50,355 bases of DNA from a virus, in the IMG/VR virus record IMGVR_UViG_3300033149_001173, positions 1-50,355 of that record. One strand, 5' to 3'. Below the pieces are notes generated by a model, which worked only from the letters and a program-made list of their open reading frames with translations, made no database searches and had not been told where the DNA came from. Shown piece after piece: positions 7,861 through 49,060 of this stretch (positions are counted from its first letter, which is position 1; every line of letters begins with the position of its first letter). A program made the position numbers and the translations under genes.

Positions 7861-8022
7861 TTACCTCCTGAAAAGTCTGCCCATGAATCTACCTGTATAG
7901 TGCCCTACAATACGCCTTAAGATACGTTTAATCAATTTGCCACTAAACAAAGCGATAATGTCGTTAATGATTCGCAAAGTCGGATACATTATCGCCCTAA
8001 ATGAACGTAGCATCTTAAGCAT
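7861..8022 (-). CDS. 53-aa arginine-rich basic peptide
   Basis: ATG 8022 follows GAAAGGAAAATTAAC. The product starts MLKMLRSFRAIMYPTL and ends in a run of basic residues (RLFRR). It is cationic and amphipathic, compatible with membrane or nucleic-acid contact. It lies 1 nt from the 174-aa gene and 4 nt from the 34-aa gene, so all three form one unit. Confidence 0.55.
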   Translation of the reverse strand: MLKMLRSFRAIMYPTLRIINDIIALFSGKLIKRILRRIVGHYTGRFMGRLFRR

Positions 8023-8023
8023 G

Positions 8024-8548
8024 TTAATTTTCCTTTCTATCTTCCATTTTTGCTAATACCTCGTCTGCCCAAGCCTCGCCTGCGTAGTCCTGAATATACT
8101 CCTTTGCGACTTGCTTACCCTCGTTAAGGTCGCGGCGGATTGCGCTGCGCCTGCGGCGCTCAATCTCTCTTTCCGTAACGACTTCATTCGCAAGTTGCAG
8201 CGCTTCTTCACGGGACATTTCCGATAGGCTGCGCAGTTGTGCTGGCCGTTTGTATCGTCGGAAATAATCGTCGATGGCCCGCACTCCGCTCGTAACCTCT
8301 ACGGTGTCTGGCGCATTGGCCGCTCGGTAACCGGTAATCCGGTCATTGCCATAACGCGATAATCGCTTCTCTGGAATAATAATGTTTTGCGCCATCGCGT
8401 CGGAGACGGTGAAACCATACTTAGCGTAGGCTTCAGATGATTGTTCCAAAAACTTACGTTTTGATTCCGGGACGGGTTTGGCGCGCGAGCGGATTTCGTC
8501 GGCACGGCGCTTGGCATCGGGAGATAACCTCATTTTTACTCCTTCCAT
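8024..8548 (-). CDS. Hypothetical basic helical protein, 174 aa
   Basis: Two starts are possible: ATG 8548 behind AAAGGAGAATTAAG, used here, and ATG 8533 behind GGAGTAAAA. The protein is rich in Arg, Glu and Ala and mostly helical, with a cluster EREIERRRRSAIRRD near the C-terminus. Its DNA is visibly more GC-rich than the genes to its left, which suggests a different origin. No family recognised. Confidence 0.65.
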   Translation of the reverse strand: MEGVKMRLSPDAKRRADEIRSRAKPVPESKRKFLEQSSEAYAKYGFTVSDAMAQNIIIPEKRLSRYGNDRITGYRAANAPDTVEVTSGVRAIDDYFRRYKRPAQLRSLSEMSREEALQLANEVVTEREIERRRRSAIRRDLNEGKQVAKEYIQDYAGEAWADEVLAKMEDRKEN

Positions 8549-8583
8549 CTTAATTCTCCTTTCCGTTGTTCATGTTTTAGTTA

Positions 8584-8615
8584 ACTTAGAGTGTAAGGAA
8601 AATGTGGCATTTGCA
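8584..8615. repeat. Cassette 1, left arm of inverted repeat
   Basis: This 32-bp arm contains GAGTGTAAGGAAAATG and GGCATTTGCA. It matches the reverse complement of 9016-9047 with one mismatch. It lies 29 bp beyond the stop codon of gene 8645-8995. Confidence 0.9.
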
Positions 8616-8644
8616 TAGGTTAGCGGGTTAGTTACTTTACGATT

Positions 8645-8995
8645 TTACTTGGTCTTGGCAGTTTGCTGCGTATTCGTCTTGACAGTTTGCTGCTTCTTCA
8701 GGTCACTAAAATCAACCTTCTTTGGCGTTTTACTCTTTGATTGCCGACCGTTGACGGATAGCATTTCTGCGCCAGTCAATTGACGGGCGAACATACGAGC
8801 GCAATTAAGTGGTTTGTCCCTGCCCTTGTTCAATTCTGCGGCAATGGCCAGGACGTGCTCGGACGTTGGAATCTGGTCGGCGACACCGGCATCCTTCATC
8901 CGTTGACCAACGTTGCGCAGGACCTCAGCATGAGCATTCATCAGCATAACTGGCTTTTTTGGGTCGAGTGTAGCATCAGCGGGGATAATCAACAT
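8645..8995 (-). CDS. Cassette 1 hypothetical protein, 116 aa
   Basis: The protein begins MLIIPADATLDPKKPVML. It has a folded N-terminal two thirds and a disordered Lys/Thr/Gln-rich tail (KTNTQQTAKTK). ATG 8995 follows GGGAGGATAAGTT. The gene is the sole content of the first inverted-repeat cassette, with only 20 bp between its start and the right arm. No family recognised, and no transposase or recombinase motif. Confidence 0.65.
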   Translation of the reverse strand: MLIIPADATLDPKKPVMLMNAHAEVLRNVGQRMKDAGVADQIPTSEHVLAIAAELNKGRDKPLNCARMFARQLTGAEMLSVNGRQSKSKTPKKVDFSDLKKQQTVKTNTQQTAKTK

Positions 8996-9015
8996 AACTT
9001 ATCCTCCCAATGTGT

Positions 9016-9047
9016 TGCAAATGCCACATTTTCCTTACACTCCAAGT
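9016..9047. repeat. Cassette 1, right arm of inverted repeat
   Basis: Reverse complement of 8584-8615 with one mismatch in 32 bp. It directly abuts the first base of the next cassette's left arm at 9048. Confidence 0.9.
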
Positions 9048-9075
9048 GCCTTGCCTCTGATTAGAGGCTGATAAC
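9048..9075. repeat. Cassette 2, left arm of inverted repeat
   Basis: A 28-bp arm, perfectly complementary to 9567-9594 and unrelated to cassette 1. It contains the small palindrome CCTCTGATTAGAGG. It begins 8 bp past the stop of gene 9084-9320. Confidence 0.9.
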
Positions 9076-9083
9076 AGTTTGGA

Positions 9084-9320
9084 CTAATCTAAATCGGTGG
9101 GCATTTCAATGGGGAAATCCCCTTGTATCTGTCCACAATTTAGACAATAACCAAACTCAACGTAATCCCCCCCACCAATGCCCATATACATTGGCACATA
9201 CCCTTCGTAATCAATAGGAGTGCCATCGTCAGGTGGGTTATGGAAAAGGGAGAATCTGTCAGAGCACTTGGCTTGAACGTAAACCACCTTGTTAGACCTA
9301 CACCTTTGGCATCTTGTCAT
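9084..9320 (-). CDS. Cassette 2 zinc-ribbon protein, 78 aa
   Basis: Two CxxC knuckles, CQRC at residues 4-7 and CLNC near residue 60, frame a typical zinc ribbon. The stretch between them is rich in Gly, Tyr and Asp (GIGGGDYVEFGY). Zinc ribbons of this kind usually contact nucleic acid or protein partners. The start follows AAGGAGTCTTGAT. It shares its cassette with another cysteine-rich gene. Confidence 0.7.
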   Translation of the reverse strand: MTRCQRCRSNKVVYVQAKCSDRFSLFHNPPDDGTPIDYEGYVPMYMGIGGGDYVEFGYCLNCGQIQGDFPIEMPTDLD

Positions 9321-9331
9321 ATCAAGACTCC

Positions 9332-9532
9332 TTATGCTAGTGGTAGAACGGTCATGTAATCATGCACATGGCCGCAAACACAACACACGGGTGGGTAATC
9401 CCAGTCGCTATCGACAAAGATAGGATATACGTCTTCTCTGCCGATATCGACAGGCAGGCATTCGTTGCAGTATACTTCATCGTCGAATACACATGCCTCA
9501 AAGTCATATGCTTTGTAAGCAGGTAGCCTCAT
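9332..9532 (-). CDS. Cassette 2 cysteine-rich protein, 66 aa
   Basis: Cys-x-x-Cys pairs occur at CNEC (residues 22-25) and near CCVCGHVHD at the C-terminus, with nearby His residues, so zinc binding is likely. The centre is acidic. Similar small cysteine-rich proteins turn up in other phages without assigned role. ATG 9532 lies 34 bp from the right repeat arm, with AAGGAATGTTGCT as ribosome site. Confidence 0.65.
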   Translation of the reverse strand: MRLPAYKAYDFEACVFDDEVYCNECLPVDIGREDVYPIFVDSDWDYPPVCCVCGHVHDYMTVLPLA

Positions 9533-9566
9533 AGCAACATTCCTTGAGATGGTGGAATCTTGATAC

Positions 9567-9594
9567 GTTATCAGCCTCTAATCAGAGGCAAGGC
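9567..9594. repeat. Cassette 2, right arm of inverted repeat
   Basis: Perfect 28-bp reverse complement of 9048-9075, separated by only 3 bp from the left arm of cassette 3. Confidence 0.9.
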
Positions 9595-9597
9595 TTT

Positions 9598-9622
9598 GCC
9601 GATACCACCATTTACGGGGATT
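9598..9622. repeat. Cassette 3, left arm of inverted repeat
   Basis: A 25-bp arm, GCCGATACCACC then ATTTACGGGGATT. It matches the reverse complement of 10306-10330 with one mismatch and ends 20 bp past the stop of gene 9643-10266. Confidence 0.9.
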
Positions 9623-9642
9623 CCTCTATAAGGATTGAAGGG

Positions 9643-10266
9643 TTAAAAAGGCTCCGGGTCACCGTAACTGCGAAGGCAAGTTGCTGCATGTTGGAACACA
9701 CGCGCCTTTTCGTCTTTTCCTTCTTCTTTTACAACCCTTCCCAGTTCTTCGAGATACCTTGCGCACCTTTCCATAGTGTCATGGTCCAGTTTGTTTTTGG
9801 GCGGTTTGGCAGGGGAATCCAACGTATCTGCATCTTTAATCGCGCGATACACTAGATTCCACAAATTCTTTTGGTAGTCCTTTAGTCCGGACTTCCACAA
9901 GTATGGTCTCAGTAATTCTTGAGCCTTGTGCTTTAAATCGACATTCTCTTGTAACTGCACGTCGATTTGCTCGGTGCCCGGACCTCTCCAACGATAAACG
10001 TATGCACAATTATCGTCGTTATAAGCACCGTCTACGTTGTAGTCGAAAGGCCCAAGAAGGAAAAACCCCAATTCGGCAAGGAACGTTCTTATGCTCGTAT
10101 CCTTGGAATCATGTTCCGTTGCCGATGCGTAGAAATCCCAATCACTCTCAGGTTTGGCGGTCCCAAAGAATCGGGAACCGGTCAACCAGAAGTTGAATGG
10201 GGATTTCTCCATTTCGTCCAGGACGTTTTGCATCCTTGCGGTTTGCCCTTGCGTATTATGCAACAT
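9643..10266 (-). CDS. Cassette 3 nucleotidyltransferase-fold protein, 207 aa
   Basis: FWLTGSRFFGTAKPESDWDF carries the minimal nucleotidyltransferase signature: Gly30-Ser31, then Asp42 and Asp44 for metal binding. Asp102 in the strand IDVQL is a candidate third acidic residue. A helical C-terminal part (about 125-207) may be the partner or substrate domain. Enzymes of this superfamily move a nucleotide onto protein, RNA or small molecules; which applies here is unknown. ATG 10266 follows AAGGAGAGTCGAT. It is the only gene in the third cassette and the first in the leftward transcript. Confidence 0.75.
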   Translation of the reverse strand: MLHNTQGQTARMQNVLDEMEKSPFNFWLTGSRFFGTAKPESDWDFYASATEHDSKDTSIRTFLAELGFFLLGPFDYNVDGAYNDDNCAYVYRWRGPGTEQIDVQLQENVDLKHKAQELLRPYLWKSGLKDYQKNLWNLVYRAIKDADTLDSPAKPPKNKLDHDTMERCARYLEELGRVVKEEGKDEKARVFQHAATCLRSYGDPEPF

Positions 10267-10305
10267 ATCGACTCTCCTTAAACAGGGTTCCCGGTTGTGC
10301 CGAGA

Positions 10306-10330
10306 AATCCCCGTAAATGGAGGTATCGGC
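10306..10330. repeat. Cassette 3, right arm of inverted repeat
   Basis: Reverse complement of 9598-9622 with one mismatch in 25 bp. It lies 39 bp upstream of the nucleotidyltransferase start codon and marks the right end of the three-cassette array. Confidence 0.9.
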
Positions 10331-10687
10331 GTTTATCCACTTGTCAATGAACAAATCCTACCGGATTATCTATCTTAACGTGGAATAGTCTGTAATGAAT
10401 CATGTAGTTAATCCAATGTTGCGCAGGGGGTAAACCACTTAGTCGGCCCGTACGGTCTGCGGTTTCGGCCCGCTGCCAGCCGTAACAGATAAGGAGGATT
10501 ATCTAGATATTCACCAATCCCCGATAATCACTTATCTGATAGAGGACTAACAACCGACAAACCGCACACAACCCGTATCAGACCAAACTTAGGCCATGCG
10601 TCCTTGCACAGACCACCCAAGTTAAGGTACACAACCCGCTTTGTCAAAGACCACTAGGGCAGGCAAATTGCCCTATCCTCTACCTTA
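10331..10687 (-). ncRNA. Candidate structured noncoding RNA or long leader
   Basis: No gene is visible in these 357 bp, yet pairing is dense. A two-step hairpin forms from 10487-10503 with 10523-10537. GGTCTG (10454-10459) and the adjacent GCGGTTT can pair with CAGACC (10579-10584) and AAACCGC (10559-10565). TAGGGCA pairs with TGCCCTA at 10655-10675. The leftward promoter at 10688-10716 would transcribe it before entering cassette 3. I could not match it to a known RNA class. Confidence 0.5.
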
Positions 10688-10716
10688 AGTGTACCATAAG
10701 GGATTTTGCGCGTCAA
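10688..10716 (-). promoter_or_regulatory. Leftward sigma70-type promoter
   Basis: On the minus strand TTGACG (10711-10716) and TACACT (10688-10693) are 17 nt apart. A short inverted repeat CCTTA...TAAGG surrounds the -10 box. It would drive the candidate RNA and the inverted-repeat cassettes. Confidence 0.65.
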
Positions 10717-10810
10717 GAAAAAATCCTGGATTTTTTTTGATTCAGTTAGGGTTCTGTTAGGTGGCTTGTCGCATAGACCAAAATAGATAGGTTAATCTTC
10801 ATTTCCCCCC

Positions 10811-10845
10811 TTGACTTCCTCATTGTGACGGTGTATAATGAGGAT
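10811..10845 (+). promoter_or_regulatory. Rightward sigma70 promoter with inverted repeat around the -10 box
   Basis: TTGACT (10811-10816) and TATAAT (10834-10839) have ideal 17-nt spacing. TCCTCATT (10817-10824) and AATGAGGA (10838-10845) form an inverted repeat that covers the spacer start and the end of the -10 box, so a repressor site is plausible. It drives gene 10888-11163. Confidence 0.8.
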
Positions 10846-10887
10846 GGTGTAGGATCAGGCGAACGTTTTGTTAAAGGAGATTAAGTT

Positions 10888-11163
10888 ATGGATGCTTCAA
10901 CGATAATTGAAATGTGTTCGGAAGATACTCTTAAGGAATTGTCTGTTCTTATCAAATGTGAACAACAAAGACGTGAATCATTAAAACTAGGTTTATACAA
11001 GGATAATGAGGAATGTGAGGTTGCACCTGGTGATATGTCGTTAGATGATATATCTTGGCAAGATGTTAGTACGGTTGGTCAGTTACAAGACACTGTAATG
11101 ATTCTTAATGATAGTGGACTAGATAAGTTGAGTGGATTGGTTAATGGACGTTTGGCAATGTAA
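10888..11163 (+). CDS. Hypothetical acidic protein, 91 aa
   Basis: ATG 10888 follows AAAGGAGATTAAGTT and lies about 45 bp from the expected transcription start. The protein is acidic and helical with no cysteine motif or membrane span. It is the only gene behind its own strong promoter and faces the leftward module, a position often taken by early or regulatory phage genes. Family not recognised. Confidence 0.65.
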   Translation: MDASTIIEMCSEDTLKELSVLIKCEQQRRESLKLGLYKDNEECEVAPGDMSLDDISWQDVSTVGQLQDTVMILNDSGLDKLSGLVNGRLAM

Positions 11164-11629
11164 TGATGTGAATCAAGTTTGTAGACTTAGGGTATGTTTA
11201 TTTTTTGCACCATTTTTATGTTTATATGTTTATAGATTTCAGCGTTAGAGCATTTTTGTGTATATTTTTCAACGGTGTGATTCTATGTTGATAATTTTCA
11301 ACATTATGGCATTGAAGCCGCCCAAACACATAGATATGTCTACATACGCACGTATTATGGCATATTTACACTCAAATATGCACCCAAGTGCATACTATAG
11401 ACCCCACCAAAACAAGTATTCATTGTTAACATGTTAGTTATGTCGTATACTACATATAGTGTATTCACTCTTGGCATGGCAATTATATATTAAAGTATAT
11501 AATTTTCTGTACACAGAGGGGGGGTTCCAAAATTTTGTATATTTAAGTATATATTATTCGCCCCAATTCTGATAAATATCACTTATGTTGTATACCATAT
11601 ATTGTATACACACCTCTGAAACCTATTGT
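11164..11629. other. AT-rich noncoding region
   Basis: About 465 bp without a convincing gene. It contains runs of TATATA-type sequence, a small hairpin ATGTTGA/TTCAACAT near 11283-11305, and many TATA-like steps. An AT-rich stretch next to two repeat arrays would suit DNA unwinding at an origin, but nothing here proves that. Confidence 0.4.
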
Positions 11630-11791
11630 CCGAAAAATCACTGTCGGAAAACTGCTATCCGAAAAATCACTGTCGGAAATCTGCCGTCGGAAACCGTGCC
11701 GTCCGCGAAATGCGTCCGAGCGCCTCTTGTCGGCAATCTGCGGTCCGAAAAACCTTGTCGGAAATCTTGCGTCGGCGAAAGTCGCCTAGTG
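11630..11791. repeat. Tandem array of about ten degenerate 14-16 bp units
   Basis: Successive units start with GTCGGAAA or GTCCGAAA and end in variants of TCTGCC, for example GTCGGAAATCTGCC. Spacing is close to one and a half helical turns. Reading frames across it are repetitive and lack ribosome sites. The arrangement resembles iterons bound by a replication initiator, or a partition or silencing site. Confidence 0.7.
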
Positions 11792-11841
11792 TGCTCCGGC
11801 CACAGTTTCACATGGACCCTAATGATTAACTTCAATACCAT

Positions 11842-12166
11842 CCAGGTCATATGCAATCTGCTCCATGCCAAATTAAAATCCCATAGATTTCGCGTTTGGC
11901 ACGTTACTTGATTCACACCCCTTGGTTACTTTGCAAGTTTCGTGCCAAATTGAAATTCCGTGGATTTTGCGTTTGGCATAATGATTGCACACAAAGCGAG
12001 TGTGCAAGTTCCGTGCCAAGTAAATCGGCCCGATTCGTAAACCCTTTGTTTACAAGGACTTACGCGATTCTAAAAAACCGCCAGGACATATTGAATCTGC
12101 TCCATCAAAGTTTTTTCGTAAAATTGCCGTAAACCCTTTGTTTACAAGGGCTTACGCAATTCTAAA
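11842..12166. repeat. Three interleaved direct-repeat families
   Basis: Family A: 36 bp at 11866-11901 and 11943-11978 with 5 mismatches; each copy begins TGCCAAATT and ends GCGTTTGGCA, so its ends are inverted. Family B: 38 bp at 12037-12074 and 12129-12166 with 2 mismatches; each contains GTAAAC...GTTTAC. Family C: 25 bp at 11842-11866 and 12081-12105. A third partial A half-site lies near 12013. The set looks like protein-binding sites in a replication or control hub. Confidence 0.7.
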
Positions 12167-12180
12167 TTTCTCAGAAAAAC

Positions 12181-12463
12181 TAGGATCGCGTTTGACCGCC
12201 GGTCGATACAGTGTATAGTAGTAGTGGATTTGGAAGCGGTCTTTGGCAAGTGAACGCACGGCTAGGTAATGCGGAAAGTCTTGTGCTGGCGGACAGGTTG
12301 AGACCTTGGACTAGTAACCGCCGATGGACAGCCCTTGTGTGATCAGGGTGGTGGTGAGGGAGGCAAGGCAACCCGGACGCGATAGTACGGCATCGGGCAA
12401 GTAAGCAAGGTAGCCTAGCCTATGGTAGGTAACCGTGGGCTGTCTAACACAAGGAGCAGACCG
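12181..12463 (+). promoter_or_regulatory. GC-rich structured leader of the 12.5-14.0 kb operon
   Basis: No gene is seen in this 283-bp stretch. GACAGCCC (12327-12334) can pair with GGGCTGTC (12437-12444). The next bases TTGTGT (12335-12340) can pair with ACACAA (12447-12452), which overlaps the AAGGAG ribosome site of the first gene. The order of the arms makes the pairings either a pseudoknot or alternatives, so a translational switch is possible. Ligand, if any, unknown. Confidence 0.5.
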
Positions 12464-12625
12464 ATGGAGTGCATGACAGCAGAGCAATTGTGGCTTGTGG
12501 TCGATGAGGCTATGGTGGACGCCAGGGATTACTACAGAGAGCGAGATCCGGTCGCTCTGACGGATGCGTTACACCGTGCGTATACGACCGCCCAAGAGGC
12601 GTTGGCCAAGATGTCGGAGGCGTAA
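12464..12625 (+). CDS. 53-aa hypothetical protein, first gene of GC-rich operon
   Basis: ATG 12464 follows AAGGAGCAGACCG; an upstream in-frame ATG lacks a ribosome site and lies in the leader. The product begins MECMTAEQLWLVVDEAM and is acidic and helical. Codon use is richer in G and C than in the structural genes. Function unknown. Confidence 0.6.
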   Translation: MECMTAEQLWLVVDEAMVDARDYYRERDPVALTDALHRAYTTAQEALAKMSEA

Positions 12626-12635
12626 CGACAGTGGA

Positions 12636-12679
12636 CGGCATAAGGGCAAGAGTGTTATTGTCCTCTTGCCCTTATGCCG
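12636..12679 (+). other. Perfect 17-bp hairpin between operon genes
   Basis: CGGCATAAGGGCAAGAG (12636-12652) is perfectly complementary to 12663-12679 across a 10-nt loop. No T-run follows, so it is not a standard terminator. It lies between two genes of one operon and could be an RNase III site, an mRNA-stability element or an attenuator for downstream genes. Confidence 0.75.
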
Positions 12680-12704
12680 CAGTGCTAACATAAGGAGCGG
12701 ACCG

Positions 12705-12932
12705 ATGGAAACCCCGGAGATTCTCGAACGAACGCACGTAGTGTGCTCTTATGGTGGCGAGTTGCCACAAATCGCCCGTGACGTTCTGCGCGACTTGCTG
12801 AGCGCAACGGCCCGGCGGACACTTGCGCAGACACTCAAATCGGCCGCAAAAGAGACAAGAGTGTCGGGTTGTCCAGAAACCGCAAAAGAGTTTCGGGCTT
12901 TGATTCCGCTTGTCTGGCAAGAGGGAGCCTAA
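12705..12932 (+). CDS. 75-aa hypothetical protein
   Basis: ATG 12705 follows AAGGAGCGGACCG, nearly the same start module as the 53-aa gene (AAGGAGCAGACCG). The protein is helical and basic, with one patch of Arg and Thr in the centre. No family recognised. Confidence 0.6.
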   Translation: METPEILERTHVVCSYGGELPQIARDVLRDLLSATARRTLAQTLKSAAKETRVSGCPETAKEFRALIPLVWQEGA

Positions 12933-12934
12933 TC

Positions 12935-13129
12935 ATGCGAAAATTGCTAAATCAAGAAGTCAAAATGCCCACCTACAAAGCGGACGAATGGAGCGATGGG
13001 CAATGGGCAGTTTGGTGGTGGCGATGGTCTGGCTGGACTATCCTGAAACTCTGCGATAGCCAAGAGGCGGCAGAGCGGCTGGCCGCTGCGATGGAGAGCG
13101 ATGCGGGCGATTTCGCCAGCAATTATTAA
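12935..13129 (+). CDS. 64-aa tryptophan-rich hypothetical protein
   Basis: The start ATG 12935 is preceded by GGGAGCCTAATC. The segment WSDGQWAVWWWRWSGWTILK packs seven tryptophans into 20 residues, followed by a helix with Ala and Glu. Such density is unusual and might favour a membrane interface or a compact aromatic fold. Function unknown. Confidence 0.6.
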   Translation: MRKLLNQEVKMPTYKADEWSDGQWAVWWWRWSGWTILKLCDSQEAAERLAAAMESDAGDFASNY

Positions 13130-13140
13130 GGAGCCTAGCA

Positions 13141-13233
13141 ATGCTCTATCTCGGCTTGGCGGTTGTGTGTGTGCCTTATGCTATCATGTTGATAGCAGGG
13201 CTAATCTACGATGCTCAGAAGCGGAAAGGATAG
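13141..13233 (+). CDS. 30-aa single-span membrane peptide
   Basis: A hydrophobic span starts MLYLGLAVVCVPYAIM and ends with the basic tail DAQKRKG. AAGGAGCCTAGCA precedes ATG 13141. It is one of two tiny membrane peptides in this operon. Confidence 0.55.
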   Translation: MLYLGLAVVCVPYAIMLIAGLIYDAQKRKG

Positions 13234-13289
13234 GTTATGCTAGCAAGTTTCGCAAGGCTATGGGTGCTCCACTAATAGGAGGGTAACAT

Positions 13290-13391
13290 ATGCTAGCAAT
13301 CATGCTTATCTTGGCCCCTATCACTGCGTTAGTGATTGTGGGCGTAGTGGCAGAGTGGGGGCATGACCCGCGTATTAACCCTTGGGCGTAA
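13290..13391 (+). CDS. 33-aa single-span membrane peptide
   Basis: The sequence begins MLAIMLILAPITALVIVG and ends in a short polar tail. ATG 13290 follows AGGAGGGTAACAT. A 12-codon frame at 13237-13275 (MLASFARLWVLH) sits just upstream with its own AAAGGA and could act as a leader peptide; I do not call it as a gene. Confidence 0.55.
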   Translation: MLAIMLILAPITALVIVGVVAEWGHDPRINPWA

Positions 13392-13402
13392 GGAGGCATG
13401 CC

Positions 13403-13594
13403 GTGAAATTGCACATCGAGATTGATTGTGACCGCTACGGTCACAATTGGCCTGCCGAGATTAAGCGGGTGCTCGCAAGGTTCGCGCACGAAATCCCGCA
13501 GCATCCACAAGACGATTGGGAGGGCAAGGGGCTTGTGTTGTGGGACGCGGCAGGCGCTTGCGAGTGTGGCAAAGTGTACGTGACAAGGGACTAG
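13403..13594 (+). CDS. 63-aa protein starting at GTG
   Basis: GTG 13403 follows AAGGAGGCATGCC; the ATG in that spacer stops at once, so GTG is the practical start. The protein has a CxC pair near its end (ACECGKVYV) and several His residues, which might bind metal. Function unknown. Confidence 0.6.
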   Translation: MKLHIEIDCDRYGHNWPAEIKRVLARFAHEIPQHPQDDWEGKGLVLWDAAGACECGKVYVTRD

Positions 13595-13615
13595 TCAATG
13601 TTAAGGGGCCTAATC

Positions 13616-13780
13616 ATGGACGATAGACAATTGACACAATTCGTAAGAGAACTGAAACATGCATTGACGTATGAAGCGGAAATGGCAAGGGAGATTGACG
13701 AAAACTGGGAGCGCGAGAAAACGTTTCTCGACGCCAGAAAGATAGTCGAGAATCTGGCAAGGGATTACGTGGGAGCCTAA
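13616..13780 (+). CDS. 54-aa helical acidic protein
   Basis: ATG 13616 is preceded by AAGGGGCCTAATC. The product is helical with alternating acidic and basic residues and no hydrophobic span. It belongs to the same start-module series (GCCTAATCATG) as its neighbours. Function unknown. Confidence 0.55.
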   Translation: MDDRQLTQFVRELKHALTYEAEMAREIDENWEREKTFLDARKIVENLARDYVGA

Positions 13781-13782
13781 TC

Positions 13783-13968
13783 ATGCACAATCGACTTGAC
13801 GCGCTTAGGACTGCTGCGGCGTTAGAATCCTATGCCGCACGCCTGCGGCGTAGGGCAAGGGTTCTAGGTCGCACAACCGATGTGCGGCCGCTAATCCGAT
13901 TAGCCGACAGGGACGTGGCCCTGGCATCGGCTATTCGGTCCAGTAGGGCAACCGTTAATCAAGACTAG
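13783..13968 (+). CDS. 61-aa arginine-rich protein, last gene of the operon
   Basis: ATG 13783 follows GGGAGCCTAATC, 2 bp past the preceding stop. The protein is very basic (LRRRARVLGR) and helical, so binding to nucleic acid is plausible. The operon ends 50 bp later at a strong terminator. Confidence 0.55.
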   Translation: MHNRLDALRTAAALESYAARLRRRARVLGRTTDVRPLIRLADRDVALASAIRSSRATVNQD

Positions 13969-14017
13969 AGGATGGAGTGGCTAAGCCCGTCCAGCACTGA
14001 GGATAACTAGTATATCT

Positions 14018-20340: not shown

Positions 20341-21054
20341 ATGAAAAAGTTAATTGTAACTCGTTGTCATAGACAAAAAGAACATGATATGATTTCTTTA
20401 ACCCATCCCATTCTTGAAAATTATGCAAATAAATGTGGTGCTGACTTTTTAGTTTTGGATGAATTAAAATATTGGGATTTACCAACTGATGATATTTTTC
20501 CAAAAGCCATGTATGCTGTATTTAGATGTAAAGAATTGTTAAATGATTACGATAGAATACTTAATATTGATTCCGATGTGTTGATTACTACAAATTGCCC
20601 AAACTTATTTGAAATTGTTCCATATGATTACATTGGTGGGGTTTGTGAGGATGTAGGTTCCAGAAAACATAATCGAAGACACCTTATTCAGTTAGTTCAA
20701 GAAAGATTTGGGGGAATAGGATGGACATCGGATTTTATAAATGGTGGTTTATGGGTAGTATCAAAACCACATGCTAATATTTTTTCTGCTATTAATGGTG
20801 AACTATGGAATTTATTTGGTTTGGAAATGACACATATAAACTATACTTTACAAAGGTTGGGGCATACTTTATGTAAATTACCGTTCGTATTTAATCATAT
20901 GTCAATGTTTAGTGAACCTTGGAATAATAATGCAGATAGACTAAAGTCCCATATTATTCATTATGCTGGTGGAGCAAAGTTCCCTGGTAATGATAAAGAT
21001 AGGGTTGAGTTGATGAAACAAGATGCTAAACAATTGGGGTTGACAGATGCTTAA
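20341..21054 (+). CDS. Glycosyltransferase, GT8-like GT-A fold
   Basis: The N-terminal Rossmann-like half ends with LNIDSDV, where Asp77-x-Asp79 is the metal- and sugar-nucleotide-binding DxD motif. FINGGLWVVSKP follows and resembles the acceptor loop of GT8-type enzymes. HYAGG near the C-terminus (about residue 215) is the expected metal-binding His. The 237-residue protein would be cytosolic. It opens a run of sugar-modifying genes and overlaps the next gene by 8 nt. Donor and acceptor unknown. Confidence 0.75.
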   Translation: MKKLIVTRCHRQKEHDMISLTHPILENYANKCGADFLVLDELKYWDLPTDDIFPKAMYAVFRCKELLNDYDRILNIDSDVLITTNCPNLFEIVPYDYIGGVCEDVGSRKHNRRHLIQLVQERFGGIGWTSDFINGGLWVVSKPHANIFSAINGELWNLFGLEMTHINYTLQRLGHTLCKLPFVFNHMSMFSEPWNNNADRLKSHIIHYAGGAKFPGNDKDRVELMKQDAKQLGLTDA

Positions 21055-21754
21055 ATTATATCAAATGTTTCATAATAAGGAAACATTTGAACAATGTAGT
21101 AAAGATAAAAGAATCATAAAATTATGTGTAGGGTATGATTTAAGAAACTATGAAAATATAAATGGGGAATTTATTCTAGCAAACGAAGGTAAATACACTC
21201 AAAATCAATTAGTTGAATATCCTGGGTTTTATTGGGCAGCCAACCATATTGACAATGAAAAATATATTGGGTTTAGTGTATATCGACACAACAAAGTATG
21301 TAGGACTAAGAGATCAATAGAACAAGTTGTTTCATTAGATTATGATAACTTATTTCTGAGTACGGGTGTGGTTGCTTTTACTTATCATCCTTGGAATAAT
21401 TTAATAAAACATGATAATATTGTTCACCCTGGTATGTGGGATTTTATAGGGAAGTGGTTGGTTGGAACAAAAAATATAACTGAGAATGAATGGAAAGACA
21501 TTTGCAGAATTTCTTCACAAAAAACAAGTATTCTACGAAATTGTTTTATACTACCAACAAAATTATTCGTTGATTATTTCAGATTTTTGACTGATTTTGT
21601 TGAATATATCGATAAAAATTATAATATTGAAGCATACTCGTTAGATATTAAGGTTCCTGATAGAAATAGGGGGTGGGCTTATTTTTGTGAAAGAATAATA
21701 AATATTTACTTATTACATAGATACGGAAAAGATTTACGAATAGGAATAATTTAA
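21047..21754 (+). CDS. DUF4422-like glycosyltransferase
   Basis: EYPGFYWAANHID then YIGFSVYRHNK, together with the C-terminal NRGWAYFCERIINIYLL, matches the layout of DUF4422 glycosyltransferases. In that family a YIGxxHYRR segment and a Rxx(Y/F)xxER segment are conserved. Here the His-Tyr-Arg-Arg block reads VYRHN, so it is a divergent member. The length of 235 residues is typical. It probably transfers a sugar to a glycan begun by its neighbours. Confidence 0.65.
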   Translation: MLKLYQMFHNKETFEQCSKDKRIIKLCVGYDLRNYENINGEFILANEGKYTQNQLVEYPGFYWAANHIDNEKYIGFSVYRHNKVCRTKRSIEQVVSLDYDNLFLSTGVVAFTYHPWNNLIKHDNIVHPGMWDFIGKWLVGTKNITENEWKDICRISSQKTSILRNCFILPTKLFVDYFRFLTDFVEYIDKNYNIEAYSLDIKVPDRNRGWAYFCERIINIYLLHRYGKDLRIGII

Positions 21755-21755
21755 A

Positions 21756-22445
21756 ATGAATTCTAAATACATTCTAACTTGTCAAAATAAAAGATTTATT
21801 TATTATTTTATACCAAAATCTGGTTGTACTTCGTTAGCTGTATGGACACTTGAACAATGTGGGTATAGACAAGAAGATATATTAAAAAGTTACGACGCTG
21901 ATAACCCAGTAACAAAACTTGCTAGAAACTTAATTGGTGTTGATATTGTAAATCCAAATAATAATTATTTTAAATTCACATTTGTTAGAAATCCATTAGA
22001 TAGAGTGGTATCAGTTTTCTTAGAAAAAGTTATTAAAGACAGGGGAGAAACAGCAAGAACAATAGAAAGTAGATTAAGTTTAAATAATCCAACTTTTATT
22101 GATTTTGTTACCTCCTTAGAAAATATTAATATAGAAGAATTCGATGAACATTTAGCCCCCCAAAGTTCTTTAATAAAGGGGTTTGATTTGGATTTTGTTG
22201 GTAAGTTAGAAAATTTTGAGGAAGACTTTAGATGGTTACAAGAAAAAATCAATGTTAGTTCTTGGCCTTTAAGATTAAATAAAACGAAGATAGATAAAAA
22301 TAAAAATGGGGATTATTCTTTAGTTAGTAAAATGGAACTGAGTAAAATGGATGGGTACCCCCCCTATTCTTGTTTTTATACAAAGGATATTAAAAGTAAA
22401 TTAAATAGAATTTATCAATCAGATATTGACAAATTTGGGTATTAA
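21756..22445 (+). CDS. Sulfotransferase, family 2 type
   Basis: IPKSGCTSL at residues 19-27 is the 5'-phosphosulfate-binding loop, and FTFVRNPLDRVVSVF (about 74-88) is the 3'-phosphate-binding segment of PAPS-dependent carbohydrate sulfotransferases. DEHLAPQ and VGKLENFEEDF also match the family. The enzyme would move sulfate from PAPS to a sugar hydroxyl. It has no membrane anchor, unlike Golgi relatives. The gene starts 2 bp after the DUF4422-like gene. Confidence 0.8.
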   Translation: MNSKYILTCQNKRFIYYFIPKSGCTSLAVWTLEQCGYRQEDILKSYDADNPVTKLARNLIGVDIVNPNNNYFKFTFVRNPLDRVVSVFLEKVIKDRGETARTIESRLSLNNPTFIDFVTSLENINIEEFDEHLAPQSSLIKGFDLDFVGKLENFEEDFRWLQEKINVSSWPLRLNKTKIDKNKNGDYSLVSKMELSKMDGYPPYSCFYTKDIKSKLNRIYQSDIDKFGY

Positions 22446-22459
22446 GAAAGGTAGCAGTC

Positions 22460-23458
22460 ATGGATAATGTTCTTACGCATTATGAATCTATAAAACAATT
22501 ACAACAAGGAATAATGTGTAAACCTAGATTTGCAAGTTTGCATACTTCTAATTGTTGTAATCAAAATTGTAAAGGTTGTGCCTATGCAAATATAATTAAT
22601 GGACAAGTTTTGGACTTTGATAATCAGAGAAAGATATTAATTGATTTAATGGATTTAGGTGTTCGAGGATTTGAGTTTGCTGGTGGTGGAGAACCACTAT
22701 TAATACCACAAATTGTAGATTTATGGAAATTGCTCATTGACAATCAAAGAAAATTTGGTGTTCTAACCAATGGTACATTATTAACAGATGAAATGATTAA
22801 TTTTATTGTTCGTCATGGAACATACATTAGAATTTCATTAGAGGCTACTGATGAAGACACTTATAGTAAATATAAAAGAGTTCCCAAAGATATTTGGAAC
22901 AAGGTGTTAACAAATGTGGAAAAGTTAGTTGCTTATAGAGATGAGTTTAATTCATCGTGTGAAGTTTCAATAAAGTTTTCAATAGGCAAATCCCTAAAAG
23001 GTGAAAAGTTCATACAAAATGGAGTATTGCTAGGAAACAGATTAAAAGTAAACAATGTTCAATTTAAAGCGTTAAGACATGAACCAGAGGAATTAAGTTT
23101 AGATGCTAAACATGAACAAGAAATATTTCTAAATCATTATTGCCAAGACAAGAAATTTAGATGGTGGGTTATTCCTTGGGATTATGAAGATATTCCACAA
23201 TGTTGGTTAAACCCATTACACGTGGTTGTGGATTATAATGGAGATGTACACCTTTGTTGTTATTATTATTATAGAGATAATTATAAACTGGGAAATATGT
23301 TACAAACCCCAATTAAAGAATTATGGTATAGTGATAAGCATTTTGAGTTAATAAAGAATATTAAAAGAGAGGAATGTGCAAAAGTTGATTGTAAGTTTTT
23401 TAGGCACCACAAAATAGTAGACGAAGCGTTCAAGAATGGAGCAATTGAGTTTCTATAA
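22460..23458 (+). CDS. Radical SAM protein with SPASM-like C-terminus
   Basis: Cys33-x3-Cys37-x2-Cys40 holds the [4Fe-4S] cluster that splits S-adenosylmethionine, and GGGEP (75-79) binds SAM. The C-terminal part (CWLNPLHVVVDYNGDVHLCC, then ECAKVDC) has the cysteine spacing of a SPASM or twitch domain with an extra cluster. Such proteins modify peptides or act on sugars and aldehydes. Placed among glycosyltransferases, it may modify a sugar or a virion peptide. Its stop overlaps the next start. Confidence 0.85.
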   Translation: MDNVLTHYESIKQLQQGIMCKPRFASLHTSNCCNQNCKGCAYANIINGQVLDFDNQRKILIDLMDLGVRGFEFAGGGEPLLIPQIVDLWKLLIDNQRKFGVLTNGTLLTDEMINFIVRHGTYIRISLEATDEDTYSKYKRVPKDIWNKVLTNVEKLVAYRDEFNSSCEVSIKFSIGKSLKGEKFIQNGVLLGNRLKVNNVQFKALRHEPEELSLDAKHEQEIFLNHYCQDKKFRWWVIPWDYEDIPQCWLNPLHVVVDYNGDVHLCCYYYYRDNYKLGNMLQTPIKELWYSDKHFELIKNIKREECAKVDCKFFRHHKIVDEAFKNGAIEFL

Positions 23459-24375
23459 TGAATACAATAATAACTACTACTATTAACCCACCAACAGAAG
23501 CAATTATTAAATATGACAATATGCTTGATTGGAATCTTATTGTTGTAGGTGATGAAAGAACTCCTGAAGATTATAAATTAGAACATGGAACATTTTTATC
23601 CATTGATTATTGTAAAGAAAATTATCCTGATTTACACAAGATAATTGGTACAAACAATATTGACTTAGGGCGTATGATTGGGTTTATTGAAGCATATAAA
23701 AATGGTGCAGATATAATTGCCACTATAGATGATGATAACATACCATTAGAAAATTGGGGTAAGAATATTGCAGTAGGGCAGGAAGTAGATGCTTTTGAAT
23801 ATTTCTCAGTTGAAAAAGTATTTGACCCATTAGGTGTAACAGAACATGCTAATTTGTGGCATAGGGGATTTCCGCTAGAACTTATTGATAGACGTAATTA
23901 TTTACGTGGTAATTATGTAAAAGTAAACCCATTGGTACAGGCTAATTTGTGGAATGGTGCCCCTGATATTGATGCAATTTGTCGCAAGATGTACCCTTAT
24001 GATGTAAACTTTGGTATAAGTCATTATTTCTATGGTAAACGTATGATTTGCCCATTCGATACCCAAAATACTATAGTTCATAGAAGCATTTTAAAATATT
24101 ATACTACATTACCACATATAGGTAGAATGGATGATATTTGGGGAGCATATTTACTGCAATCAAAAATAAAAGATTGTGTAGTATTTGGACCTGCTACGGT
24201 TTACCAAGATAGAAATATACATGATTTGAATAAGGATATTGATGAAGAAATATTAGGGTATAAGTATTCTATGGAGTTTATTGAAGCATGTTTAGACAGT
24301 TATGAAAGTGCGTTAGAATATTTACCAACTAGAACAAGAGAATGTTATTTGGCTTATCAAGAATATTTTAATTAA
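23458..24375 (+). CDS. STELLO/DUF288-like glycosyltransferase
   Basis: The opening TTTINPPTEAI and LIVVGDERTPEDY match the N-terminus of STELLO and DUF288 proteins, whose usual form is TTxxPPTxA...VVGDxKTP. DDDN at 91-94 provides the DxD metal site. Glycosyltransferase activity is inferred from the GT-A-like fold of the family. The 305-residue protein lacks membrane spans. The start overlaps the radical SAM stop by one base. Confidence 0.7.
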   Translation: MNTIITTTINPPTEAIIKYDNMLDWNLIVVGDERTPEDYKLEHGTFLSIDYCKENYPDLHKIIGTNNIDLGRMIGFIEAYKNGADIIATIDDDNIPLENWGKNIAVGQEVDAFEYFSVEKVFDPLGVTEHANLWHRGFPLELIDRRNYLRGNYVKVNPLVQANLWNGAPDIDAICRKMYPYDVNFGISHYFYGKRMICPFDTQNTIVHRSILKYYTTLPHIGRMDDIWGAYLLQSKIKDCVVFGPATVYQDRNIHDLNKDIDEEILGYKYSMEFIEACLDSYESALEYLPTRTRECYLAYQEYFN

Positions 24376-24386
24376 GAGAAAGACTG

Positions 24387-24956
24387 ATGAATATAGATAA
24401 AATAAAGAATTATCCTAAATATAAAAACATAAATAGTAGAAGTGGGCCAGGAGCAGAGAAATTAATATATCCTAAAATTATTAAACACAATGCTTCTATT
24501 GTATTAGAAATAGGAACACATAAAGGGCATTCAACAGCATATTTGGCCGCCGCTTGTAAAGAAACCAATGGAAAAGTATATACTATTGATATAGACAAAA
24601 ATGCACAAAATCAAGCCAAAGAATTTATTGAATGGTTAAAACTCGATAATGTAGAATTTATACTTGGGGATTCATTGGAAAAGTTACCTGTTTTGTTAAG
24701 TTCTATTACACCAGTGATAAGTTTTATAGATGGTAAACATTCTTATGAATATGCTTCACAAGAATTTAATCTTATTTGGAATAAATGTAATAAATTAAGC
24801 AATTATGCAATCATTTTAGATGATATAGGTTACGTACATATTGATGGTAAAAAGGATGGTGGTATTCCTAAACTTATTAAAGAGATAAAAGATAGAAATA
24901 TTTCTTATACTATAGAAATGGAAAGATACGCAGTGATAGAAAAGGAACAGATATGA
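24387..24956 (+). CDS. Class I SAM-dependent methyltransferase
   Basis: VLEIGTHKGHSTAYLA (39-54) is motif I of the Rossmann-type methyltransferases, VYTIDID gives the acidic residue that binds the SAM ribose, and ISFIDGKHSYEYA corresponds to motif IV. The pattern is that of the Methyltransf_24 group, often found beside sugar-modifying genes. It probably methylates a sugar hydroxyl. The 189-residue length is normal. The stop overlaps the next start. Confidence 0.8.
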   Translation: MNIDKIKNYPKYKNINSRSGPGAEKLIYPKIIKHNASIVLEIGTHKGHSTAYLAAACKETNGKVYTIDIDKNAQNQAKEFIEWLKLDNVEFILGDSLEKLPVLLSSITPVISFIDGKHSYEYASQEFNLIWNKCNKLSNYAIILDDIGYVHIDGKKDGGIPKLIKEIKDRNISYTIEMERYAVIEKEQI

Positions 24957-25837
24957 AAAAAGTAGTGTTATTCATGGTAGCAGGTATAGGTAACATTGTT
25001 GAAGCAACTCCTATGGCTGTAGCATTGGAAAAATTAGGATACGTTGTTGAGATTGTATTAAGTTCTAATTTCCCAGGTATGGAAGATTTGTTACCTTGGA
25101 AATGTTACAACCCGGAAAAAGTTAATTTGGAAAATTGTTATGATATTGGTTTATCTTATTGGGCTAGAGGTAATAAGTTCCCTGATAAAACTCCTGATGG
25201 TAAAAAGTTAAATGTTTATAGTACCAGACTTAATATTCAAGAATATAGTGAAATAGAATGTAATATGGATGTAGCAAGACAAATGGGGTATGAAGATGAC
25301 ACCCCTGCTACTAAATTAGTTGTTCCAAAAGTGAAAAACCCTGTGGATGTTAGTAATTATGTAGTTATTTGCCCAGGTTACCAAAAGTCAACACAACATG
25401 CTAATTGGAGTAATAAGGCATACCCACGATGGGGTGAAGTTATTGAACTTATTGATAAACCTGTAGTTGTAGTAGGCACAGAGGATGAAAATGAAGATTG
25501 TTTTGAAAAAGCAGATATTAACATGTGTGGCAAAACCGACTTATTACAGTTGGCAAAAATATTAAGTGAGGCAAATGGAGTTATTGCTTGTGATAATGGC
25601 CCAGCACATATGGCGGATGCTTATAAGGTGCCTACGGTTGTATTGTTTGGACCTACAAGCACATTAAAAAATGCTTACTACCAGGCTAAAATTATGTTTA
25701 TGCCTAATAATGTGGTAAATTGTCGCCCTTGTCAACAAAACATAGAAAAGATGAGCAATTGTAAAAATAATATATGTATGAAATATTTAGAACCAAAACA
25801 AATAGTTGCAACTTTAAATAAAGCAATGGAGGAATAG
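24953..25837 (+). CDS. GT9 (heptosyltransferase-like) glycosyltransferase
   Basis: The C-terminal half has CDNGPAHMADAYKVPTVVLF then GPTS, the conserved nucleotide-sugar site of family GT9. The N-terminus is a GT-B Rossmann domain (VVLFMVAGIGNIVEATPMA). Bacterial GT9 enzymes add heptose to lipopolysaccharide core. This 294-residue version is somewhat short, so its donor may differ. It acts in the cytosol. Confidence 0.82.
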   Translation: MKKVVLFMVAGIGNIVEATPMAVALEKLGYVVEIVLSSNFPGMEDLLPWKCYNPEKVNLENCYDIGLSYWARGNKFPDKTPDGKKLNVYSTRLNIQEYSEIECNMDVARQMGYEDDTPATKLVVPKVKNPVDVSNYVVICPGYQKSTQHANWSNKAYPRWGEVIELIDKPVVVVGTEDENEDCFEKADINMCGKTDLLQLAKILSEANGVIACDNGPAHMADAYKVPTVVLFGPTSTLKNAYYQAKIMFMPNNVVNCRPCQQNIEKMSNCKNNICMKYLEPKQIVATLNKAMEE

Positions 25838-25839
25838 TA

Positions 25840-26127
25840 ATGGCCACTCAAGTATGGACAACTTCTGGCAGCGATATGGTTACAGTCACGTCTGCTGCTA
25901 CAAATATAATTGCGGCACAACCAGATAGAACATTTTATCACGTAATGATTTCCAATGGTGATTCTGGTTCTGATTTATTATACAGTCTTGATGGTGGTTC
26001 CCATTGGGGGCGTATTGAAGCAGATAATTCTAAATCATTTGATGGTGTTCGTATAAAAAATACTAATATTCAAGTAAAGGCTATTGGTAGTGAAATTGTT
26101 TCTGATGTATATGCGGAGGCATGGTAA
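25840..26127 (+). CDS. Small beta-rich virion protein, 95 aa
   Basis: The protein starts MATQVWTTSGSDMVTVTSAA and is rich in Ser, Thr, Gly and short strands (DLLYSLDGGSHWGRI). Proteins of this look are common minor structural or decoration proteins. It is embedded in the carbohydrate gene run, 2 bp after GT9, so it is a candidate acceptor or surface protein. That role is inferred from place and composition. Confidence 0.55.
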   Translation: MATQVWTTSGSDMVTVTSAATNIIAAQPDRTFYHVMISNGDSGSDLLYSLDGGSHWGRIEADNSKSFDGVRIKNTNIQVKAIGSEIVSDVYAEAW

Positions 26128-26168
26128 TAATTTCAACAAAACCAAGGCAATTACAAAGTTTCAAATTA

Positions 26169-26183
26169 ATCATTGAAAGGAGA
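26169..26183. repeat. Right copy of 15-bp direct repeat
   Basis: ATCATTGAAAGGAGA, identical to 20233-20247. Here it supplies the ribosome site of the GT4-like gene. Confidence 0.5.
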
Positions 26184-26188
26184 TAAGT

Positions 26189-27406
26189 ATGAGTATTCGT
26201 TGTGCCCACATCGTTGCAGTAACACCACATAGAGCAGGTATTTATGAAACTGCAAGAGAAATAGTTATAGGGGAACGGTCACAAGGAATTGATGCTAGGA
26301 TTGTTGACTGTGGTAACAAATGTGAAGCAGGTTTAGTTAATAAAAAACGCAAAGAATTGGAACCTTACTTTGCACATTTGGGTGTTGCCAGAAATGCTGG
26401 TATTGAAGGCGCAATTAATTATCTAAAAACCACAGAAGCATTCAATGTTGAATGTGTTAAAAAAGGAACTGAAGATAGAGGAATTATCATTGAAGACAAT
26501 GAGTGGGTTATTAATGAAGCAGATATAATAGTAGGACATAGTGGTTTTCATAATGAAATACAGAATCTAAATAAACCATATATTATGTGTGCTCATGGTA
26601 GACCTAAAAGTTCTTTCTTATTAGAATATTACAAAGAGTACTCAGTTTATGCTAGTTATGTAAACATGAATCACGATAAAAGGATTCTTAAGTTTATCAC
26701 TTTTTGGAAAGAATATATTCCTAACATTGCTATGTTAGTTAATCCTGAGAAGATTGAGTATGTTCCTCCTTGTGTAGATACGAACTTCTTTAATCCTGAA
26801 GGTGAAAAGTTTGATTTCCCAGATAACAAAAAGTTTAATATTATCATTGTTGATGTGTGGAGAAAGGATATTGACCCTTATCACGTAGTACATTGTTGTC
26901 ATTGGTTTTGTAAGAAACATCCAGAAGCACAATTTCATATGTTCGGTTGTAAACCACCTGATGATATGGGGCCTTGGAAAATATTATTAGGCAAATGCCA
27001 AAAGGAAGGCACATTAGGTATAGTTACTGGAATGATAAAAGAAATCGACAAGGTATATCGCAGTGCGGATATGATGGCAACACCTCACACGATTGCCACA
27101 CGTACTGTTAGAGAATCGCTTGCTAGTGGATTACCATTAGTTGCAGAGGAAGGAAATCCTTATACTAATTATCATGCACCATTATATAATTATGATAGAT
27201 TTATAGGTGAAATGGAAAGATGTTATAAAAGTATACAACTTGATAAACAATCTACTAGCATGAAGATGAGAAAATCTGCTGAAAAACATTTTAGTATGGA
27301 AAATACTGGTAAAGCCATGAAAAAAATCATTGAGAACACTCTAGAGGAATGGAAAAGTGTTGATTTAACACCTGAACAAGTATTACACGAAGCAGTAGTT
27401 ATGTAG
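26189..27406 (+). CDS. GT4-like glycosyltransferase (GT-B fold)
   Basis: YVPPCVDTNFFNP (about residue 190) and TRTVRESLASGLPLVAEEGNP (about 307-327) are the usual linker and C-terminal nucleotide-sugar signatures of retaining GT4 enzymes. The acidic residue of the ExxxxxxxE motif is at RESLASGLPLVAEE. The 405-residue length fits a full two-domain enzyme. Family members transfer sugars from nucleotide donors. The start has a strong AAAGGAGATAAGT. Confidence 0.8.
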   Translation: MSIRCAHIVAVTPHRAGIYETAREIVIGERSQGIDARIVDCGNKCEAGLVNKKRKELEPYFAHLGVARNAGIEGAINYLKTTEAFNVECVKKGTEDRGIIIEDNEWVINEADIIVGHSGFHNEIQNLNKPYIMCAHGRPKSSFLLEYYKEYSVYASYVNMNHDKRILKFITFWKEYIPNIAMLVNPEKIEYVPPCVDTNFFNPEGEKFDFPDNKKFNIIIVDVWRKDIDPYHVVHCCHWFCKKHPEAQFHMFGCKPPDDMGPWKILLGKCQKEGTLGIVTGMIKEIDKVYRSADMMATPHTIATRTVRESLASGLPLVAEEGNPYTNYHAPLYNYDRFIGEMERCYKSIQLDKQSTSMKMRKSAEKHFSMENTGKAMKKIIENTLEEWKSVDLTPEQVLHEAVVM

Positions 27407-48683: not shown

Positions 48684-48697
48684 AAACTCTAGTCCTT

Positions 48698-49060
48698 TCA
48701 TGTTTCATAGGGGAAATGCAACCATTTGTTGTGATTAACTAATTCAACATAAAACTTCGGTTTAGGATTACAATTATATCTTACGTAAACTGAAGCAATA
48801 TCATAATTATATTTATTCCACTTTTTAATGGTATTACCAGTATCACATATATCATCAACAATTATTTCAGCATCCATGTAATTATGAACAATAATAAACG
48901 TTGGATTCTGGTAACTAAGTAAACTTTCTATTATCAACCCACCACGAGCAATACCCCACAAACGGGAGTTGTTTGGTAATTGATTGGCAAGAATTGCAAT
49001 ATTTTTCATCAATTCCGGCCAAGTGATTATTTCTAATTTATCTTCTTTTGTATGTATCAT
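48698..49060 (-). CDS. Phosphoribosyltransferase
   Basis: EIIVDDICDTGNT (65-77) is the PRPP-binding motif of type I phosphoribosyltransferases, with Asp69 and Asp70 binding the metal-PRPP. WGIARGGLIIESLL gives the ribose-phosphate loop. At 120 residues it is shorter than bacterial PRTases, and the hood that defines the base is reduced, so the substrate is open (xanthine, hypoxanthine, uracil or a regulator). A longer reading to 49111 runs into the tRNA gene, so I start at ATG 49060. Confidence 0.78.
   Translation of the reverse strand: MIHTKEDKLEIITWPELMKNIAILANQLPNNSRLWGIARGGLIIESLLSYQNPTFIIVHNYMDAEIIVDDICDTGNTIKKWNKYNYDIASVYVRYNCNPKPKFYVELVNHNKWLHFPYET

Follow-up and report, generated by a model that had tools for sequence, protein, structure and literature searches.

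The virus record studied here (50,355 bases, taken whole and called the window below) raises the question of why three inverted repeats should lie end to end between positions 8584 and 10330, each pair bracketing one gene module, and whether such repeats act in DNA or in RNA. A sequence-only reading of the region had described three adjacent units with their own long inverted repeats, and all three are present where it had placed them. The first repeat (I1, 8584-8615/9016-9047; 32 bp with one mismatch) and the second (I2, 9048-9075/9567-9594; 28 bp, perfect) were reproduced, as were the gaps of 0 and 3 nt between neighbouring units. The third (I3, 9598-9626/10302-10330) had been correctly located, but it is 29 bp long with two mismatches and not 25 bp with one. 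Likewise, the middle unit had been credited with a single gene at 9084-9532; it holds two, at 9084-9320 and 9332-9532. In all, four genes are enclosed, all on the minus strand and each with a Shine-Dalgarno sequence (SD). The features of the array are as follows:

8584-8615, minus strand: 3' arm of unit 1 (left arm of I1), 29 nt past the stop codon of the 116-aa gene
8645-8995, minus strand: gene of unit 1, 116 aa, SD GGGAGG, without a family match
9016-9047, minus strand: 5' arm of unit 1 (right arm of I1), 20 nt ahead of the start codon
9048-9075, minus strand: 3' arm of unit 2 (left arm of I2), abutting unit 1
9084-9320, minus strand: gene a of unit 2, 78 aa, CxxC pairs, zinc-ribbon-like (weak, below cut-off)
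9319-9331, minus strand: candidate nested 3' arm, 13 nt, over the SD and start of gene a; pairs with 9554-9566
9332-9532, minus strand: gene b of unit 2, 66 aa, CxxC pairs
9554-9566, minus strand: candidate nested 5' arm; pairs with 9319-9331
9567-9594, minus strand: 5' arm of unit 2 (right arm of I2), 34 nt ahead of the gene b start codon
9598-9626, minus strand: 3' arm of unit 3 (left arm of I3), 3 nt from unit 2
9643-10266, minus strand: gene of unit 3, 207 aa, nucleotidyltransferase-like motif GSRFFGTAKPESDWDF
10302-10330, minus strand: 5' arm of unit 3 (right arm of I3), 29 bp
10331-10880, minus strand: intergenic leader upstream of the array, with a candidate minus-strand promoter at 10716-10688

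On the transcript, the 5' arm precedes the start codon by 20, 34 and 35 nt in units 1, 2 and 3, and the stop codon precedes the 3' arm by 29, 8 and 16 nt; the distances between arms and coding ends thus span 8-35 nt when recomputed, where 8-39 had been given. Every arm lies outside the SD-ORF-stop units, even with 81% of the array taken up by coding sequence. Comparison of arm with arm bore out the claim that the three pairs have no sequence kinship and a common geometry. The 3' arm of unit 2 (9048-9075) also contains a 6-bp internal palindrome, GCCTCT-GATT-AGAGGC.

Could repeats of this kind arise by chance? The three score 30.5, 28 and 24.5 and are the top three in the window, where every other inverted repeat scores ~17 or less (50 kb scanned); the best score in 1000 Markov shuffles of 8000-11000 was 17.5. 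The same scorer was applied to ~3.0 Mb of other phage DNA, in loci that partly overlap, and to a further 0.8 Mb. In the ~3.0 Mb, scores of at least 22 came only from opposed genes on one contig, which we take from their sequence to be tRNA genes. In the further 0.8 Mb, the sole score of at least 22 was that of one 27-bp repeat (22.5). Neither a gene-enclosing equivalent nor a second set of three in tandem was found in these ~3.8 Mb. Phage DNA thus very rarely has gene-enclosing repeats of such length, and a chance origin is ruled out by the shuffles together with the survey. An artefact of assembly is unlikely, because the arms, at just 28-32 bp, are shorter than the k-mers usually used in assembly. 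The 27-bp repeat lies at 12028-12362 of a 320-kb phage contig (L220) and encloses 281 nt beside a tRNA-Asn gene; this interior gave no convincing gene and no known RNA family, and the repeat may be the stem that closes an undescribed RNA.

The enclosed ORFs look real, because GC is higher at their first codon position than at their second. The array genes have a GC content of ~0.46-0.48 and a GC3 of 0.45-0.56, compared with 0.34 and ~0.25 (two genes tested) in the rest of the phage. The neighbouring gene at 8024-8548 has the same high GC3, yet no arms; the region is therefore a composition island of accessory genes. As to function, the 207-aa gene has a nucleotidyltransferase-like GS...DWD motif with weak matches to a PHROG (E 0.01) and to Pfam NTP_transf_2 (E 0.12); its structure, predicted without an alignment, had a mean pLDDT of 53.6, too weak for a useful fold match. 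No defence family matched, and profile searches gave no family for the 116-aa gene. Beyond chance matches, there were no relatives of the 207-aa gene in viral contigs, genomes, phages or plasmids, none of the 116-aa gene in viral contigs or phages, and none of gene 2a or of the 8024-8548 gene in phages. Searches of the array region and of the structural genes against phages by blastn gave nothing or chance matches. An Rfam scan of the array found no known RNA; a U1 match at 9104-9240 was far under the gathering score and was taken as chance.

No minus-strand promoter or terminator match falls between 7600 and ~10650, which makes co-transcription of arms and genes probable, and the minus strand of the array probably forms one polycistronic transcript. 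The candidate promoter in the leader, at 10716-10688, scores 9/12 with an extended -10 and is not above shuffle expectation. We folded a 1.86 kb coding-strand transcript, taking the minimum free energy (MFE) structure and helix probabilities. All three helices appear in the MFE structure with a predicted probability of 0.997-1.0, the third with an internal U:U mismatch, and masking the arms costs a predicted ~52-55 kcal/mol of fold energy per unit. The three units have 5'-3' flank duplex energies with z values of -9.9, -9.5 and -6.5; the next best gene in the window reaches -3.0. The array thus has the feature of an mRNA with paired 5' and 3' UTRs, in that complementary flanks of a putative common transcript are predicted to pair, and also that of a processing stem, in that a predicted helix of 28-32 bp closes each unit (with the U:U in the third). 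An inverted repeat of 28-32 bp pairs as well in DNA, however, and the predicted fold thus does not separate RNA from DNA.

The choice between RNA and DNA rests on anatomy. The genes lie on one strand and the arms outside the SD-ORF-stop units, and the arms share geometry and not sequence, as they should if it is pairing that counts and not the sequence itself. There is also a lean in the mismatches: on coding-strand RNA the single mismatch of I1 becomes G:U, and those of I3 become U:U and G:U. The pairing scores of the coding strand (31.3/28.3/25.3) are higher than those of the other strand (29/28/23.3) because two of the three arm mismatches become G:U there; this lean rests on three mismatches, and both transitions would fall this way by chance about 1 in 4 times. 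Among the three interpretations that the sequence-only reading had offered, an mRNA panhandle fits these properties and the predicted pairing (~99%) best; a set of invertible segments is not supported, for the reasons given below, and a modular cassette array has part of the expected anatomy, but target-site duplications, a shared end sequence and further copies were looked for without success.

We consider the chances evenly balanced that the repeats act in RNA, as helices that close each module on a polycistron and serve as an RNase III cut site, an end-protecting panhandle or both. A helix of 28-32 bp would close each module into its own loop, with three loops side by side in the fashion of pre-rRNA. 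Being long and perfect or near-perfect double-stranded RNA, the helices would be likely substrates for RNase III, of which perfect helices of such length are the classical substrates. A cut within the helix would free each module as a separate mRNA, and the leftover stem would tie the 5' end to the 3' end and so shield the mRNA from exonucleases; we infer RNase III cutting and end protection alike. The gain would be separate half-lives, protection from decay at the 5' and 3' ends, or closed-loop re-initiation. Two further points count against the RNA model: translation and the order of transcription could stop ends that are 400-700 nt apart from pairing in time, and the gene at 8024-8548 has a similar base composition and no arms.

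The closest parallel is in pre-rRNA, where 16S and 23S rRNA each lie within an inverted repeat that is cut by RNase III. As in the array, tandem loops of hundreds of nucleotides on one transcript each have their own long helix, and the helices are unrelated in sequence. In pre-rRNA, however, the loops hold rRNA, whereas in the array they hold phage protein genes, and cutting of the array is a proposal. We put forward tentatively, and with less confidence than action in RNA as such, that this is a pre-rRNA-like phage operon, in which each protein-gene module has a private processing or panhandle helix and the polycistron is cut into mRNAs with tied ends. A small literature search limited to open papers found neither the same arrangement in phages nor a description of a pre-rRNA-like architecture for bacterial or phage protein genes.

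The array shares parts of several known systems and is a clean member of none. Pairing of the ends might act on translation, keeping each mRNA inactive until it is processed and so giving late or signalled expression, as in hok, aapA and icaR. Bacterial long-distance 5'-3' pairing that governs translation is documented (PMC6733600, PMC3868564): the 5'-3' UTR pairing of icaR in S. aureus covers the SD (UCCCC motif) and is an RNase III substrate (PMC7821165, PMC3868564), and the type I toxin mRNAs hok and aapA have a long-distance 5'-3' interaction (PMC6733600). In hbs of B. subtilis a 14-nt pairing of the ends shields the mRNA from RNase Y (PMC7821165). The array is predicted to pair its mRNA ends across whole coding regions, as icaR and hbs do, and to pair them stably, as hok and aapA do. 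The pairings of icaR and hbs are short, however, and the icaR SD is covered, whereas the array has helices of 28-32 bp, SDs clear of the arms and three adjacent modules; hok and aapA trap the SD of a small-peptide toxin and have an antisense RNA partner, whereas the array encodes proteins of 66-207 aa with SDs untrapped by the arms. The known translational switches trap the SD itself, while the main arms here end several nucleotides ahead of each SD, and SD exposure computed for free and for masked arms hardly differs (0.29/0.23, 0.24/0.24 and 0.31/0.38). The SDs of the array are therefore not sequestered by this comparison, and that the arms barely alter their exposure argues against repression of the icaR/hok type. 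What would favour such a switch is a nested 13-bp helix (9554-9566/9319-9331; predicted probability 0.998), which encloses gene b and is predicted to cover the SD of gene 2a; its flank duplex z is just -2.0, and we keep this weak helix only as a possible part that may be due to chance. A translational switch is, on balance, improbable. The same helices could instead promote translation, by bringing each stop codon near its own start and thereby letting ribosomes that terminate there begin again on that mRNA. The spacings (8-29 nt from stop to helix, 20-35 nt from helix to start) would set the stop beside the SD, and SD exposure unaltered by the arms fits such a closed loop. Double-stranded RNA of 28-32 bp would, however, meet RNase III cutting in most hosts, and we know of no established bacterial precedent for closed-loop re-initiation; the prospect is a decidedly slim one.

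If the repeats act in DNA, the units could be mobile elements without a transposase (like mobile insertion cassettes or passenger-carrying MITEs). Their arms would be terminal inverted repeats that an enzyme from another locus recognises, and three distinct elements would have landed end to end. Mobile insertion cassettes such as MIC231 and mic-qnrD are genes bracketed by inverted repeats with no transposase and usually with a target-site duplication (PMC3913671). The units have this IR-gene-IR anatomy, with terminal inverted repeats of 28-32 bp (24 bp in mic-qnrD) around passenger genes and no transposase, and the array genes look acquired, with GC and GC3 above the rest of the phage. Yet, as the sequence-only reading had noted, no target-site duplication is visible: neither the single units nor the array as a whole are flanked by a direct repeat of more than 3 nt. 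The ORFs scanned in this record, which is a fragment, gave no recognisable transposase, integrase or invertase. The arms have no second copy in the window, and in searches by exact matching the cores of arms 1 and 2 were absent from 2.9 million viral contigs, while the 19-base core of arm 3 had two isolated matches in 257 Gb of genomes, where by our own arithmetic about four are expected by chance; neither match had an inverted partner. The array also differs from mobile insertion cassettes in that exact matching of the arms turned up no related IS ends, in its near-perfect arms and in that three different, mutually unrelated arm pairs abut within 0-3 nt with all genes on one strand, and the neighbouring gene at 8024-8548 shares the unusual composition and has no arms. 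Unrelated arms, no further copies, no target-site duplication and no recombinase together speak against a common recombination system, and we regard mobile cassettes as unlikely, though as the chief rival to action in RNA. Local template switching or inverted duplication might alternatively have made the arms as an inert by-product, neutral since. Quasi-palindrome repair, which can perfect inverted repeats, offers a route, but three events would be needed, each precisely around a gene module and together tiling the region, and ~3.8 Mb of phage DNA shows nothing similar; a by-product is very improbable. Least credible of all is a switch that turns genes on and off, with a recombinase inverting each unit between its arms. 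Genes flanked by inverted repeats do recall phase-variable loci, but with private arms each unit would require a separate recombinase site, all genes have one orientation, no minus-strand promoter match lies within the units, and the ORFs scanned in this fragment contain no recombinase.

If the repeats act in RNA, as we prefer, the phage would have evolved a separate end-closing helix for each of several consecutive protein-gene modules. Such helices would be a cheap, portable way to let every module in an operon have an mRNA fate of its own. If the repeats act in DNA, the units would be abutting gene cassettes with neither a transposase nor a known mobiliser. Either would, as far as we have found, be new for phages.

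The record, with genes for a tape measure protein and an HK97-type major head protein, is apparently a fragment of a tailed phage, and an orphan one: its major capsid protein has distant relatives only (~25-33% identity), and the relatives of its ribonucleotide reductase are from phages otherwise unrelated to this one. Beside the array, 11600-12170 is largely non-coding and densely repetitive, with TGTCGGAAA.../TCCGAAAA repeats of 29-nt period, two copies of a 39-nt sequence, CGTAAACCCTTTGTTTACAAGG(A/G)CTTACGC(G/A)ATTCTAAA, and two copies of a 36-nt sequence with inverted ends, TGCCAAATT(A/G)AAAT...TTTGGCA. These repeats look like iterons, operators or origin elements. The stretch at 12200-14000 is GC-rich (0.52-0.54), and its tiny ORFs, on the plus strand, have recurrent sequences at their start sites (CTAACAYAAGGAGCRGACCGATGGA twice, GGRGCCTAATCATG twice), which resemble start-associated sequences of some mycobacteriophages. 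Ahead of these ORFs, 12230-12440 resembles by eye a structured non-coding RNA and had no match in an Rfam search; between two of the tiny genes, at 12636-12679, is a hairpin whose perfect stem of 17 bp closes a 10-nt loop (CGGCATAAGGGCAAGAG / CTCTTGCCCTTATGCCG).

Elsewhere in the window, glycosyltransferases, a sulfotransferase, a radical SAM/SPASM protein and a methyltransferase are clustered at 20341-27406, with the head gene on one side and the head-tail connector genes on the other, which suggests sugar or surface modification by the phage. At 45258-48701, a LAGLIDADG domain interrupts the large subunit of ribonucleotide reductase and is probably an intein. There are also three tRNA genes and, as translation-related pieces, a GatB/YqeY domain and an S4 RNA-binding domain in small phage proteins (503-889 and 49395-49784).
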